DNA of 64,000 nucleotides from Ustilago trichophora (taxonomy: Eukaryota; Basidiomycota; Ustilaginomycetes; Ustilaginales; Ustilaginaceae): assembly GCA_900323505.1 (NCBI GenBank), contig OOIN01000016.1:558001-622000 (forward strand). Direction: 5' to 3'. Positions 12,855-19,688 of the stretch are shown piece after piece. The position numbers and the translations under genes were made by a program. Each line of letters begins with the position of its first letter. The first letter of the stretch is position 1. Below the pieces are notes generated by a model. The model worked only from the letters and a program-made list of their open reading frames with translations. It was not told where the DNA came from and did no database searches.

Positions 12855-13742
12855 ACTGTGTCACCGAGCTTAGAGAGTAAGATGAAAGATGGAAGCAGAT
12901 AGGTACGAACGGCTCGCTCAGAGCTGCTCCCGTCTGCCTTCCTCCTCTGCTGAGTTTCCTATGTCCAGAGAGCCAACCAAAAGGATCACGGATTTGTCGC
13001 AAGCAAAATCGCTAGATATTTAGTCGCGTCTGTCTTTACTGCAATGGAAGGGAGGTACTTTTCGCTTGTTTGTTGTTAGGATGTGGTATACATGTGTGTC
13101 AGTGAGGAAAGCCCACACACAAAGATGGTGGTGTTGTTGGTGTTGGTGGAGGTTTCGGATGCAGTCAAAAAGCAACACCTGCAGCCAACGCTAATGTTAA
13201 TGTTGACACCTGACAGAGCGGGGGTGTGACTTTAGGGAGAGAGGAACGCGTCGTTGGGCAACAACAAGCCCTGTTTTGACCGGTTGTATTCAACTTTTCA
13301 GACACGTTTGTGGAGTGAATACAAATTTCAAGGCATAGCAAATGTCGGTCAATTCAAAGACGTGTGATTTCAGAGAGAGAGCAACAAGCTTTTTGGAGAT
13401 GTGACGTTTTGGTGGTCTCAGCGGCGACTTTGGGTTTGTGCACACTGTAAACACGGCCGGAAAATCCGAAATCTACAGACTGAGTGTGTGTGTGAGAGAG
13501 AGAGAGGTGGAGAAGTCAAGTGTCCAAAATTGGAACTTTGCTGCGCTCTCTCTCTCTCTCTTCCTGCTCATTCCGAATCGTACAGCAGAAGCACAAGCAG
13601 CAACTGCAGCACATCGTGCATTGATCCATTCAGAGGGCGATACCTCCACCTTCCCTTTCAACCATCATCCTTGGTCGCCATCCACTTACACAGCGTGACC
13701 GTATTCCATCAGAAGATCATCATCATCACTTCCACTGTCACA
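12855..13742. other. Intergenic region with GT/GA and CT microsatellites
   Basis: 888 bp. Contains a (gt)n(ga)n tract at about 13482-13506 and a (ct)n tract at about 13546-13561, the latter probably in the 5' leader of the downstream gene. A 114-codon upstream extension of that gene's frame is open but begins with a low-complexity stretch and would bury the mitochondrial presequence. Confidence 0.5.
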
Positions 13743-16261
13743 ATGTTGCGACGAATCGCCAGCCGCACTCTCAGGGAGCCCGTCCTCCGACCCTCCTCTC
13801 CTGGTCCTCAGCCTGCCGCTGCCACCTCTGCAGCCGTCCTCTCGTACCAGTACCAGCTTCTTCAGCAGTCTCGAGGTCTCGTCTCCTCGGTCCTCCTCAG
13901 CAGCACTCGCGATGCCTACGAGAGCAAAAAGATGGCCGAGCTCAAGGCTGATCTCAAGTCGCGTGGTCTCGCTTCCTCTGGTCGCAAGGAGGACCTCATC
14001 AAGCGTCTTGTAGACCACGACTCTTTCATCAACGGCAGCACTGCCAACATGGAATCTGCCCCCGGTGCTCGTCCTCAGCTTCGCAAGAAGTCGACCTTGG
14101 CCTCGCTCCGCAACGGTGAGAACGACGCCAAGAAGAAGGACGCCCCCGCTCCACCTGCCCCTACCTCCCAGTCCGGCCACACCACCGTCAAGGGCACCCC
14201 ACCTCCCGCCAACGCTCATCAGTCCGACGGCCCCACCGTGGACGCTGACACTGCAAAGGCCGTTGCTAAGGCCAGCAAGCCTCTCGGTAGCATGAAGGAG
14301 TCCGAGACGCCTTCCAACCTCGAACCTGGTACAGTCCACAATGCTGCCGCTGACGGTCTTGCTGGTGACACCACCGCCAAGGCCTCGCCTTCCCAAGCCG
14401 AAGAGGGCCCTGCCAAGAAGACCACCCCACCTGGTCTTCCCCCTCAAAAGGCCCCTGTTGCCAAGGAGACCTTCAACGTTCAGATTCCCTACTACCCTGA
14501 CCCCCCCGTTCCTGGCGCAAAGATCCCCGTCGTCACCTCCTACACCTCGCCTCACCTGCGTCAGTCCGAAGAAGCCGACCACACCGAGTCGTCGCCCTTC
14601 GTGCCCAAGGCCATCAGCGTGTCGGCAAGCTCAGCGATCTCGCACGCCTCTGACATGGCCGATCACGCCGAGTCGAGCAAGCAGGACAAACCTAAGGGCA
14701 TCCTCTCCGAGATTCTTGCCGATCTCCAGGCTTCGACTGGATCCAGCAGCAATAGCTCCCAGTCTGCACTTTCCGGCATCAACAAGAGCGTCGATGCTGC
14801 CAAGGAGGCATTCAGCAATGTCGCAGAGCAGGCTAAGGGCGCTTTTGCTTCGGCCACTGGTGAATCGTCTTCCTCGCCCTCCTCCTCCTCTTCGTCTTCG
14901 GGCTCATCATCTTCTTCTTCTTCGTCGTCGTCCTCTTCACGAAAGAACGCCAACCGACCACTGAACGACCAGGAACGTACCGGAGCATACGTTCTTGCCG
15001 GTATCGTCGCTGGTGGATTCTTCCTCGGCGGCCTTGGCAAGTCTAGCAAGTCCAAGGACCACGACCATCATGACCACCACGACGATGACAAGTCTTCCTC
15101 AAAGTCGGCTGGCAACACCGCCGACCCTGAAGGCAAGACCGTCGTCCCCAAGGTCGTCCCCGTCGCCGCCGTCCCCCGAGGTGATGGTGCCAACAAGGCC
15201 GAATCCAAACCCACCGGCTCCTCGATCCCAGCCCCTACAGGAAGCAAAGTCATGGCGCCCATTATGTGTGTTCCCAAGGGCACTCAGCTCTCCACCTCCT
15301 CTCCCTCCGGAGCATCCAGCAGCATTGCCAACGAAGCAGCGGCAACACTGGCCAGACTTGCCCAGCTGTCCACTTGCGAGGTGAGCAAGTAAAAGATTCC
15401 TCTCCCCTTGCCCCGTCATGTAGATACACTCTTGGCTTCGGCCTCGGAAAACAACAAACAACCAGCGCTGTTTTTTTATGCATATGCACAATCACATGAA
15501 TGTTTCGCTTTTCTTTGCTCGGATTTGCTTTGTTTGGATCAGGATGTGCTGACGAAGTGTTTCTCTTGCTTTTGTGGGGTGGGGAAAAGGTGTCGGATGC
15601 GTTGCTCAAGTTGAAGGTGAAGGAGGGTGGATATTTGGCTGGGATTGAGATGTACTCTCCTAGCTATTTGGCTTCTCCGGAGGTGAAGGTTTGTGGGCCG
15701 GCGTATACGGTCAAGATGGTTTCTCAGCAGGATACGAGTGCTCCCAAGCCAAAGGAGCATTTTGTGGATGCAGCTCAGGCGTATCCAGGACATGTTGTGG
15801 TAGTGACCGCTCCTTCGCTCAACCGTTCCGCTGTGTGGGGCGGTTTGATGACTGCGAGGGCTCAGTATCTCGACCTGAAAGGTGTCGTGCTCGATGGAAG
15901 GTGTAGGGATCTGATGGAACACAGGGAGGCAGGCTTTGCCGTGTTTGCAAGAGGCCACTCTACGCAAGGTCAAAGTCCGTTTACTAGGCCTTCCGAGCTC
16001 AATGTGCCCATCACGATTACCGATCCCACCACGGAAGGAATGCAAGGTGAGGCGATCAAGAATCCTAAAATGCCCAGCGTTACCGTGAGACCAGGTGACT
16101 TGGTGCTGGCGGATATGGATGGCGTCGTCATCGTTCCACCATCTGTAGCGGAAGACGTGATAAGACAGGCAGAGAAAGGTCGAAGGGAGGACGAGAAATG
16201 CATGCAAGACATCAAGGCGGGTATGCCTGTCAAGGAGGCTTTTGCAAAGAACCGCACCTAG
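13743..16261 (+). CDS. SAP-domain, membrane-anchored mitochondrial protein fused by splicing to an RraA-like aldolase domain
   Basis: Two exons: 13743-15380 and 15590-16261. The 209-nt intron has donor GTGAGC, a CTGAC branch-like site near 15550 and acceptor AAAAG. The product is 769 aa. N-terminus: an Arg-rich presequence (MLRRIASRTLREPVLR), then a SAP motif at about 63-95 (MAELKADLKSRGLASSGRKE), resembling yeast Aim34. Next come a long Pro/Ser/Ala-rich linker, a poly-Ser run (about 377-402), one membrane segment at about 414-432 and a His/Asp-rich patch. The junction joins LARLAQLSTCE to VSDALLKLKV, exactly the conserved RraA/HMG-aldolase N-terminus. The RraA core follows, with DGRCRD at 648-653. 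Read without splicing, the first frame stops at 15392 and would give a 549-aa protein. RraA relatives cleave 4-hydroxy-4-methyl-2-oxoglutarate or decarboxylate oxaloacetate; the activity here is inferred. Confidence 0.8.
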
Positions 16262-16461
16262 AAAAGCAAGCTGCTCAATAGACTCTTCTTGTGTAGATAC
16301 CTCACCATCCATGGAAGGAAACCGTTTTTTGAAAGCAGATTCTAGCGCCGAGACGTTCGGTTCTGGTCGGGTCTGCCAAAGGTCACGGGTGCCTGGGTAG
16401 CAATGTGGTATGCGAGCTGACAATTCAAGCGGTATGTACAGATGCGAAAGAAGCGTCTAGA

Positions 16462-17170
16462 TCATGCAGTAATAGCAGAGTTCTGCAGCCAGTCCAATGA
16501 TGGGTCTTCAAGGTGGTCTGTAGTGTCACAAAAGGAAATGCATAGCGTGAGTCGGTTGATCTTTCCCGTTCATGCTCAACTCTCGCACCTCTATCGTACT
16601 ATACTTACCATCAAAGTCAACAATCTTCTGCCAAATCCTCTCCTTCTTCACCGCACTTTCGAGCTGCTTTGCCTTGTTCTCATCCTGCAATGTCACCGCT
16701 GACCCTTGAAGCGGCTTTGACTTTGCCTCTCCTTTGCCCGAAGCATTCGCTGAAACGGAATACCCGCTCAACGAGTGGTTGTGAGGGTTGAGCAGAGTTG
16801 CATTGTTGACCAGGAGGAGTAGGGCCTCTCTGTTGGCGAGGGTGGCGATCTTCTCTGCGAGCTTGCTGGCTTGTTGGGAGGGAGCGCGATCGGAGACCAA
16901 TTCGGGTGCTTCGTACAAGCCAACAACGGTGAGGTTCTTGGATGAGGCGTAGGAGGTGGCGAGCGACAGGGCGACTTCAGCCATGGGTGCGAGAGCTGTC
17001 CAGTGATGCGAGAGTGGAATGGAATCGGAGATGGTGACAGATCCAGAGGGGGAAGAGGTGGAGTCGGCGAGGAGGAGGCCAAGAACGCGAGCGGTTGGGT
17101 ATTTGGCTGTGTGCAGGACCAGCTTCTTGTATGCGAGCGGGGAGACGCTCACCGAGGAGATGGTCGACAT
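16462..17170 (-). CDS. EMC8: ER membrane protein complex subunit 8/9 (EMC8/EMC9 family)
   Basis: A soluble MPN-fold-like subunit of the EMC, which inserts tail-anchored and multipass proteins into the ER membrane. Two exons: 17170-16609 and 16517-16462. The 91-nt intron (donor GTAAGT, acceptor CTACAG) gives 205 aa. The start encodes the typical N-terminus with YKKLVLHTAKYPTARVLGLLL; TVVGLYEAPE (residues 81-90) is also characteristic. Splicing is needed to build the conserved C-terminal signature VDFDDHLEDPSLDW; the unspliced frame replaces it with an unrelated tail. No signal peptide or membrane segment, as expected. Convergent with the SAP-RraA gene (200 bp apart) and divergent from the FIST-like gene. 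Confidence 0.93.
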
Positions 17171-17615
17171 TGTGAGCAGTAGGCACTATGTAGTGAGTAG
17201 TTAGACAGAAAAGGATGTCTGACACACGGAAGAAGGAGAGGGTCGAGGAGTCGGTGGAGGATCAAGCAGCAGTAGTGAGGTGTAAGGAGTTGGTGCTGCA
17301 CGCGTCCGTGCGGAACCCTTTCTTCGCAGAATCCATCGGGCTGAATATCGAAAGCTTTAACCCGATGCGATTGACGATGGGATCTTCGGCATCCAAATTT
17401 AGCCTTCGTTCAGGGTCCAGCGTCACAGCTGAGCTCAGCGATTTGCAATCCTTCTCACTCCACTTTCTTCCAACACAAACCTTTCCGGCTTTGTGGAACG
17501 AGCTGCCTCGTTACCCGATTTCACCCTTTCACCACCAAACACTGGCACCTCTTGGCCATCACCATTGTCACGCCATCCAACTAGAGATTGACAAGTCAAG
17601 GTCGAAACATACACG
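17171..17615. promoter_or_regulatory. Divergent promoter region, EMC8 / FIST-like gene
   Basis: 445 bp between divergent start codons, so it must contain both promoters. No specific element was recognised; CT-rich stretches precede the plus-strand ATG. Confidence 0.5.
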
Positions 17616-19688
17616 ATGCTTCCTTCGGCCGCAAGAACGACAATGCTCACCAGGGCGAGTTGGGCTCCTGTCCAACGACACACGTATACTGCGATTCAGC
17701 AGCGTCGAAGCTATGCAAAGGCAGCCGAACAAGTTCCAGGATTGGACGGCAAGTCTGCTGCTGGAAGCTCTAAGCAAGGCGGTCAGCAGCAATGGCAGCG
17801 AAAGCAACCCTTGGCGACAGCACAGACTCTCACGCTCTTCTCAGAGACACCGCAAGGCCTGTTGATCGCATTACGGTCCACATTGCAGAGCATGACTTCG
17901 CTCTCATCGAGGCTCGGACCAGCACCCAATGCCAACACAGCTGCAAAGAAGGGACATCACGACCACGTATTACTCTATGCTCTTAGCAAAGACCTACCAT
18001 CGCAGTATCTCAGCGAAGCCGTGTCCATTCTTCGAGGGCCCGACCCGGCTCCAGAGGCATCGTCACAAGCAAAGAAGAAACGCACGAGCAGCATGACAGC
18101 AGCCCAGATCGCTGCAGCCGAAGCAGAGGAAGCGAAAGCGCAGCAATCGCGCAACGATGCAGGGTCGAGAATCGCAAGAGTCGGGATTTTGTCCTCGCCG
18201 CTTCCTGCTTCTTTGATTCCTGCAAATGCGATCGAGCCAGGTTCGCCGCCCATTGCGACTCCTACACTTTACTCGGCTGCGCTCTCCTTGCTTCCGGGTG
18301 TCAATGCGATTCCGTTCAGATCGACCATCCCAGGCAGAGCAGAAGTTGCAGTGGGTCGTTGGATGGACCGTAAACCGTCGTGGCAGCAGGGTGCTGAACG
18401 CAGAGCTGACCTTCTCGACGACGGCAATGGTGCTTTGCCAGGTGGTAGCCGCGACTGGCGTGACATTTGGGGCCGCGAAAATCTCGAGGGTAAAGTTCCT
18501 GAAGGTCTCGAAACGCTTAATCCCAACTCGGCTGCTTCGTTCATCTTCTTCTCCGACACTTCGCCACACGGCCTTATGGAGGGACTTGCGACCCAGTTCC
18601 CCGCCAGCTCCGTCCTCGGCCTCACCGCCCCACCAACACCTTTCGAGACCGGACGAGACCAGACCCTCCTCATCTCGCTGCCCCAGGGCACCCCTTCTGG
18701 CGTTCAACCGCACAGCAGTGTCCACACAAGCGGTGCAGTTGGTGTAGCCCTCGTAGCCAGCAATGACGCTCGCGATGCAGACCATCTTCCTATCCCTAGC
18801 ATCAAGACCGACTTCGAAGGTCTGCTGCCCTTCGGTCCTCGCCGCGAGATCACTGCGGCTCAGGGCAACATCATCTCCGGTCTCGACAATGCCAATGCGG
18901 CGCAGCAATTTTTGCGTGACATTCAGACACGGGAGCATCCTCTCGACCTTGACTCCACGGGTAAAGTTGCAGGATCAAGCGCGCAGAAGCAAGCTGAGCA
19001 GATGTCCGAGTTGCAAGCTCGACAGATTGCATCCAAGGTCAAGAAAGAGGAAGATTTCTTCATCGCCATCTATGCGCAGCCTGCCTCCAATTCAGCCGCT
19101 GCTCAACCAGAGCCGCTCATGCTGGCCCAGATTCTATCTGGTCATCCATCCCGCGGCACTCTCTCCGTCGATACCCAGGTCGAACTCGGTCCCGGTCCAG
19201 GACAGCCTCAAGGTACGATGAAGACCTACGCCCAGTTCTACCAGATTGACCCTTCCTTTGTGTCCAAGTCTAAGCAAGGAGGCGGCGAAGTCAAGGCGGA
19301 AGTGAAACTGATCAGCCCGAGTGCGATCGAGATTCCAGGACCGGATCCGAGCGTATGGGTCACACCTCGATTCTTGTTCCTCTCACTGCCGGCGTCGAAT
19401 GAAGACCTGCCCAAGATGGACCAGGTGCATCAGGTCAAGAAGGGCGGGAAACATCAGGTAATGGCTTTGCCGAACTTGTTCATCGCAGCCTCGGAGCGCG
19501 GATGGATTGCAGGAAAGGGTCAAAAGTCGCCCCTGACCCAGGCACAGGTGTCGCATCAGAAGGGAGAGGGGGACAAGGTAAGCCCTGTATTGGGTCTTCA
19601 GAAGGATGGATCTTCGATTGTCACTTGTACTGTTCCGCTCGCCAAGGCGACGCTTTCGCTCCGAGCTGGTTCGCAGGAGTCCAAGTAG
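17616..19688 (+). CDS. Mitochondrial FIST-domain-like protein (tentative)
   Basis: Intronless, 690 aa, ATG at 17616. The first 35 residues are rich in Arg/Ser/Ala/Thr without acids (MLPSAARTTMLTRASW...RRSYAKA), a typical mitochondrial presequence. The body carries segments reminiscent of fungal FIST-domain sensor-like proteins: RIARVGILSSPLP, the NAIPFRSTIPGRAEVAVGRW block at about 231-250, SFIFFSDTSPHGLMEGLATQFP and GAVGVALV. An Ala/Glu-rich basic insertion occurs at about 150-180. The C-terminal part (about 480-690) has alternating hydrophobic segments like a FIST C domain. No membrane segment. FIST proteins are thought to bind small ligands, but the fungal mitochondrial version is uncharacterised to my knowledge. 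The domain assignment is from memory of the family pattern and needs a profile search. Confidence 0.7.
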   Translation: MLPSAARTTMLTRASWAPVQRHTYTAIQQRRSYAKAAEQVPGLDGKSAAGSSKQGGQQQWQRKQPLATAQTLTLFSETPQGLLIALRSTLQSMTSLSSRLGPAPNANTAAKKGHHDHVLLYALSKDLPSQYLSEAVSILRGPDPAPEASSQAKKKRTSSMTAAQIAAAEAEEAKAQQSRNDAGSRIARVGILSSPLPASLIPANAIEPGSPPIATPTLYSAALSLLPGVNAIPFRSTIPGRAEVAVGRWMDRKPSWQQGAERRADLLDDGNGALPGGSRDWRDIWGRENLEGKVPEGLETLNPNSAASFIFFSDTSPHGLMEGLATQFPASSVLGLTAPPTPFETGRDQTLLISLPQGTPSGVQPHSSVHTSGAVGVALVASNDARDADHLPIPSIKTDFEGLLPFGPRREITAAQGNIISGLDNANAAQQFLRDIQTREHPLDLDSTGKVAGSSAQKQAEQMSELQARQIASKVKKEEDFFIAIYAQPASNSAAAQPEPLMLAQILSGHPSRGTLSVDTQVELGPGPGQPQGTMKTYAQFYQIDPSFVSKSKQGGGEVKAEVKLISPSAIEIPGPDPSVWVTPRFLFLSLPASNEDLPKMDQVHQVKKGGKHQVMALPNLFIAASERGWIAGKGQKSPLTQAQVSHQKGEGDKVSPVLGLQKDGSSIVTCTVPLAKATLSLRAGSQESK

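Follow-up and report, generated by a model that had tools for sequence, protein, structure and literature searches.

Is a SAP-domain protein that ends close to an RraA-like enzyme made separately from it, or are the two one spliced product? This question was raised by a locus of Ustilago trichophora, at positions 13,743 to 16,261 of a stretch of 64,000 nucleotides (nt) from contig OOIN01000016.1 (positions 558,001 to 622,000, forward strand). The whole stretch was analysed and is called the window here. Fungal RraA-like proteins are compact enzymes, and their cellular role is poorly known. The preliminary description, made from the letters of the window, had proposed that a 549-codon SAP/membrane frame is spliced in frame to the RraA-like frame. 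We found this frame at 13743-15389, with its stop at 15390-15392. LARLAQLSTCE ended at 15380, the donor GTGAGC began at 15381, the acceptor AG lay at 15588-15589 and VSDALLKLKV started at 15590. Coordinates and phase were as claimed, with no phase conflict. Exons 1 and 2 joined in phase 0 gave a protein of 769 amino acids (aa), and the gene model consisted of the following parts.

13743-15380, plus strand: coding part of exon 1, the SAP/membrane half; its 546 aa take in the 12 residues with which the RraA domain begins (protein of the second genome copy 94% identical)
15345-15380, plus strand: TLARLAQLSTCE, the exon-1-encoded beginning of the RraA domain
15381-15589, plus strand: intron of 209 nt, phase 0, GTGAGC...AAAAG, with a branch-site-like CTGAC at 15549
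15590-16261, plus strand: exon 2, the RraA-like domain (PF03737), 223 aa and stop

The junction was scored with a 14-position profile of the RraA N-terminus. The profile was built from 75 proteins outside the smut group (28 proteins of that group were excluded, and 75 of the 116 others contained the anchor motif preceded by 10 residues). When all six frames of the window were scanned (88,065 stop-free 14-mers), the highest score, 26.6 bits, fell on the end of exon 1, and the runner-up gave 10.0 bits. The background of the window 14-mers had a mean of −27.6 and a standard deviation of 7.8. In addition, with donors between 15100 and 15599, 59 GT-AG introns that were in frame and free of stops were compared. 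The proposed intron at 15381-15589 was the only one that rebuilt the RraA N-terminus, and the next scored −17. A chance joining of the two halves was ruled out by the profile scan and this comparison. The Pfam RraA score was 102.5 bits for the joined end (profile 1-152) and 98.4 bits for exon 2 alone (profile 25-152), both above the family cut-off of 24.5. The alignment of yeast Yer010Cp with a fused relative, P0001 of Kalmanozyma brasiliensis, ran from yeast residue 2 on and crossed the junction. The A of the branch-like CTGAC lay 37 nt before the intron end. The intron length of 209 nt fits the introns of U. maydis, for which an excerpt of PMC2219887 gives a mean of 170 nt. An Rfam search of 13000-17200 gave no match, and bacterial promoter and terminator scans of the intron found nothing, such models being ill-suited to a fungus. 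The comparison supported the view that the SAP half and the RraA half would form one gene product of 769 aa through the predicted splice.

The protein search for the same architecture in other smuts, which the preliminary description had suggested, listed 19 proteins. SAP was found in 11 of them, and two of these 11 also had RraA. The two were fused gene models with the same SAP-RraA architecture, P0001 of K. brasiliensis and P0009 of Violaceomyces palustris, and they were the sole uninterrupted SAP-to-RraA sequences found. The nine other SAP entries and the fragment P0143 ended 3-6 residues past CE. The RraA halves of the smut group were also fetched (17 entries, P0020-P0035 and P0051), and none of the 17 contained an uninterrupted CEVSDAL. 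SDAL was reached in nine of them, and eight of these nine had residues upstream of VSDAL that were mutually unrelated by eye. The annotated RraA halves were 200-204 aa long and started at an internal Met. No U. maydis RraA half was among the best 120 of 1093 matches. In most of the smut database entries seen, the protein ends or begins at the intron, and the fusion is therefore missed. No description of a SAP-RraA fusion or gene was found in the literature searched, a search with most subscription journals outside its scope, and basidiomycete terms did not occur in PMC4654594. The gene is a new architecture of known domains, conserved and, because its halves are mostly annotated apart, largely hidden.

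The genome assembly (38.8 Mb, 45 contigs) contained a second gene copy with this structure. It was located on contig C16, with exon 1 at 637130-638758 and exon 2 from 638980; the window copy is on C15. Both exons showed 94% protein identity to the C15 copy. In the exons the ungapped DNA identity reached 0.91 and 0.88; the intron was lower, at 0.78. The C16 intron had 221 nt, and its donor, acceptor, phase and early stop were all kept. The RraA half of this copy is annotated as UTRI_10576 (Ustilago trichophora, 203 aa). A family-profile search of the genome returned two RraA-like places, which were the two copies. The fused gene was the only RraA-like gene found in the genome, with one copy per chromosome set in apparently two diverged sets. 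The assembly looks like two such sets, which could be dikaryon nuclei, a hybrid or mixed strains. Between the sets, the coding DNA of this gene differed by ~9-12%. The contig pairs include C15/C16, C4/C8, C9/C42 and C1/C2, and many carrier-gene matches were paired. A 30-nt block, TATGCATATGCACAATCACATGAATGTTTC at 15477-15506, was identical in both introns, although they differ over much of their length.

The RraA domain carried an intact metal site.

15842-15919, plus strand: metal-site motif G631-x20-R652-D653-x2-E656

All letters of G-x20-R-D-x2-E/D were present as G631, R652, D653 and E656. Mazurkewich in 2014 is said to have described this form of the motif, as well as HMG aldolase and oxaloacetate decarboxylase activity of Yer010Cp. 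In alignment A4, G was found in 65 of 68 ungapped rows, R in 66 of 66, D in 64 of 66 and E in 64 of 67; the exceptions were all in the SAP-only rows P0140-P0142, and A4 has 12 SAP-only rows, so a few of the counted letters are also theirs. The Pseudomonas putida HMG/CHA aldolase (3NOJ) was different, since its motif is reportedly D-x20-R-D, whereas the smut protein has G-x20-R-D-x2-E. Membership among the RraA regulators of RNase E was not found with the NCBIfam models, where the scores were 31.9 bits against a cut-off of 136 (NF006875) and 29.9 bits against 123.8 (TIGR01935).

A fold model of the relative P0001 was made on a 76-row alignment. The RraA domain was confident in this model (block means 82-98 from residue 511) and had the RraA fold, and its best structural match was Yer010Cp (PDB 2C5Q). 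Modelling P0001 with no alignment gave a poor result (pLDDT 39.7), which was set aside. Judged by the relative P0001, the smut protein resembled Yer010Cp over the whole C-terminal domain, from yeast residue 2 on, and in fold. However, Yer010Cp is a stand-alone compact protein, whereas in the smut protein a SAP/membrane part that begins like a presequence precedes RraA. An excerpt of PMC5065237 states that most RraA homologues carry one of two metal-binding motifs and are likely class II pyruvate aldolases. Because the metal-site motif is intact, the RraA domain is likely a metal-dependent HMG aldolase/oxaloacetate decarboxylase.

The SAP half was divided into the following parts.

13743-13877, plus strand: Arg-rich N-terminus, aa 1-45, predicted to be presequence-like
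13917-14021, plus strand: SAP domain (PF02037), aa 59-93, Pfam score 35.3 bits
14982-15038, plus strand: hydrophobic Gly-rich stretch GAYVLAGIVAGGFFLGGLG, aa 414-432, a possible membrane span, best Kyte-Doolittle 19-mer 1.64
15255-15284, plus strand: conserved linker block APIMCVPKGT, with a Met codon at 15264

The first 58 residues contained seven Arg, no Lys, one Asp and one Glu, and the first acidic residue was residue 12. The mean column conservation of the Arg-rich N-terminus was 0.86 (10 sequences). The SAP score exceeded the curated cut-off of 23.9, which placed the protein among the SAP-domain proteins. AIM34, to which the preliminary description had likened this half, is named in an excerpt of PMC2648979. 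The hydrophobic stretch was found in a conserved block. The linker block showed a mean conservation of 0.85, compared to 0.55 and 0.44 in its variable flanks, and its Met was present in 13 of 14 sequences (12 proteins and the two genome copies). The segment TLARLAQLSTCE reached 0.92, compared to 0.44 for the stretch immediately before it (10 sequences).

We consider it highly probable that the locus is one gene with one spliced mRNA, which encodes a 769-aa SAP-RraA fusion protein, probably mitochondrial and of single origin. The mRNA would encode a presequence-like N-terminus, SAP, a long low-complexity linker, the hydrophobic stretch and a complete RraA domain. The Arg-rich N-terminus may direct the protein to mitochondria, and the stretch at aa 414-432 would anchor it, probably in the inner membrane. 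In this topology SAP would face the matrix and RraA the intermembrane space, and RraA, like yeast Yer010Cp, might be a metal-dependent HMG aldolase/oxaloacetate decarboxylase. The fusion would predate the split of Ustilaginales and Violaceomycetales and would have cost the SAP gene its own 3' end. As no other RraA-like gene was found in the genome, the whole RraA activity would be tied to the fusion protein. Since this gene carries a mitochondrial-type address, the enzyme has probably been relocated to mitochondria. Hidden peroxisomal tails are a known feature of U. maydis. A peroxisomal ending was rejected here, since neither the ends of a short SAP-only form nor the NRT end of the long form were SKL-like by eye.

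Several points weighed against the fusion enzyme. The unspliced frame from ATG 15500 scored 99.0 bits in Pfam (profile 4-152), almost equal to the 102.5 bits of the joined end and the 98.4 bits of exon 2, so Pfam by itself does not decide the splice. The protein that was folded was the K. brasiliensis relative, and in its model, outside the RraA domain, block means reached 71-84 for the SAP part and 71-77 where the hydrophobic stretch lies, while the greater portion of the remainder was below 60. The hydrophobic stretch is short, and its Kyte-Doolittle value is only moderate. V. palustris P0009 has 21 extra residues at the junction, so the model or the splice differs there. The SAP half is annotated apart in seven species. 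Finally, splicing, import, topology and activity were all inferred from sequence.

The preliminary description had also raised a short SAP form by intron read-through. In such a dual output, splicing would give the fusion, and intron retention or intronic polyadenylation would give a 549-aa SAP-only product that is used; we think this rather unlikely. The features that bear on it were as follows.

15381-15392, plus strand: tail VSK and TAA stop that would result from intron retention
15419-15426, plus strand: TGTAGATA, a Puf-type motif, 26 nt past the short-form stop; a lead only; present in C16
16292-16299, plus strand: TGTAGATA, 30 nt past the long-form stop; a lead only; past the C16 stop too, at a shifted place

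All 12 sequences (10 relatives, C15 and C16) had an in-frame stop at most 7 codons past the donor. Across 264 kb of the genome this held for 36 of 228 intron-like sites, although many of the 228 sites are probably not real introns and the 12 sequences are not independent. The longest identical run between C15 and C16 over the compared 5 kb was 74 nt (15324-15397) and covered the donor and the early stop. In addition, TGTAGATA followed both stops, and TGTANATA occurred nowhere else on the plus strand of the window. However, the donor, the branch-like site and the acceptor looked normal, unlike the more degenerate splice sites of retained U. maydis introns given in the excerpt of PMC2219887. The early stops would equally serve the decay of unspliced mRNA, and the tail GIVGxGxRK of Tilletia SAP proteins is absent from the short form. 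The Puf-type motif was chosen after inspection of the sequence, and its enrichment past the ends of open reading frames (ORFs) was not significant. In a test for a Puf3-type regulon, TGTANATA was found within 200 nt past the stop in 3 of 182 ORFs (264 kb); the gene studied here and the one next to it account for two of the three, and the count omits the site behind the long-form stop, where another frame was kept. Since 21 of 139 permuted motifs also reached 3, the test gave no Puf3-type support for two mRNA forms. Separately, the convergent UPF0172 gene (16526-17185), which we take to be EMC8/9-type, had TGTACATA 85 nt beyond its stop, on the minus strand at 16433-16440; C16 has this site too.

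An extension of this proposal is clearly unlikely. It holds that the intron is a switch kept since the fusion, in which spliced mRNA would give the membrane-bound RraA enzyme and unspliced mRNA a SAP-only membrane protein, with the intron as 3' untranslated region and, for each form, a Puf-type element close behind its stop. If this were true, a single locus would control how much of a mitochondrial SAP scaffold carries the cell's only RraA enzyme and how much lacks it.

A free, untargeted RraA might also, or instead, be made from the linker Met at 15264 via an internal promoter or leaky scanning. The splice would still be needed, and a transcript from this Met would use the same intron as the fusion. 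The widely shared Met in its conserved block, the A at −3 of ATG 15264 and the compact yeast homologue were consistent with such a start. However, six in-frame ATGs (the start included) precede it in C15, and the block APIMCVPKGT could instead be a processing site. Since no stop interrupts the SAP frame ahead of the donor, any SAP transcript spliced there would be the fusion. We regard the internal start as quite improbable.

Two separate genes as annotated, with SAP ending at 15392 and RraA starting from an internal Met (e.g. 203 aa from MYSP), would match the separate entries in U. maydis (SAP half), Testicularia, Melanopsichium and S. reilianum, as well as UTRI_10576, the RraA half from U. 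trichophora, but are very improbable: such an RraA would be without its N-terminal helix, the SAP end carries that helix in relatives for no other reason known, and the intron ATG 15500 is unconserved in C16. An RraA start at this ATG was rejected because the frame is broken in C16, which has a stop and no ATG between the stop and VSDAL. The comparison with relatives supported the proposed 769-aa fusion and spoke against a separate RraA start inside the intron, since ATG 15500 is absent in C16 and relatives have nothing visible in common upstream of VSDAL.

The origin of the fusion was examined using a tree of 28 RraA domains with a midpoint root (2 of 30 rows, Malassezia vespertilionis and Melampsora, were dropped for lack of the anchor). 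Ten smut-group rows, including Violaceomyces, formed one clade (97/91) among other Ustilaginomycotina rows. The Ustilaginomycotina rows split from seven Agaricomycetes rows with 100/99. This grouping indicates that the RraA domain is inherited vertically. Because the RraA domains of the fusion form one clade, the fusion probably arose once, as a single event. The SAP proteins P0140-P0142 (two Tilletia), from a search limited to candidates of ~242-770 aa, shared the SAP domain and the RPLN..ERTGA hydrophobic block with the fusion. However, they had the GIVGxGxRK tail of their own and no RraA domain by Pfam.

RraA was also the C-terminal domain behind another protein in the Tilletia models P0012 and P0013. 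However, the partner there was DnaJ, the tree branch was another one (P0013 is outside the tree), and these are gene models only. If real, they would represent an independent capture of RraA as a C-terminal domain. The partial entry P0037 (Tilletia) seems to hold the end of a DnaJ-RraA protein. Parajaminaea P0129, also a gene model only, had a C-terminal RraA domain, but with an ankyrin-repeat partner and on another branch. P0067, an ankyrin-repeat protein with C-terminal RraA, was grouped with P0129. RraA was joined to other proteins, some with an Mmc1-type domain, in the models P0014-P0019 (Rhizoctonia, Ceratobasidium), and these joins may be gene-model errors. At the locus itself, the next gene (17616-19688) had a presequence-like start by eye, and its FIST N match was below threshold (17.8 bits, cut-off 23.2).

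The correction of the gene model matters for the smuts, since work on the current entries would use a truncated enzyme without its first helix or would miss it. The fusion of the only RraA-like gene to a mitochondrial-type N-terminus may hint at where the activity is needed, in oxaloacetate/pyruvate metabolism near the inner membrane. U. trichophora is a malate producer, and an oxaloacetate decarboxylase in or at its mitochondria would, if true, be of practical interest.
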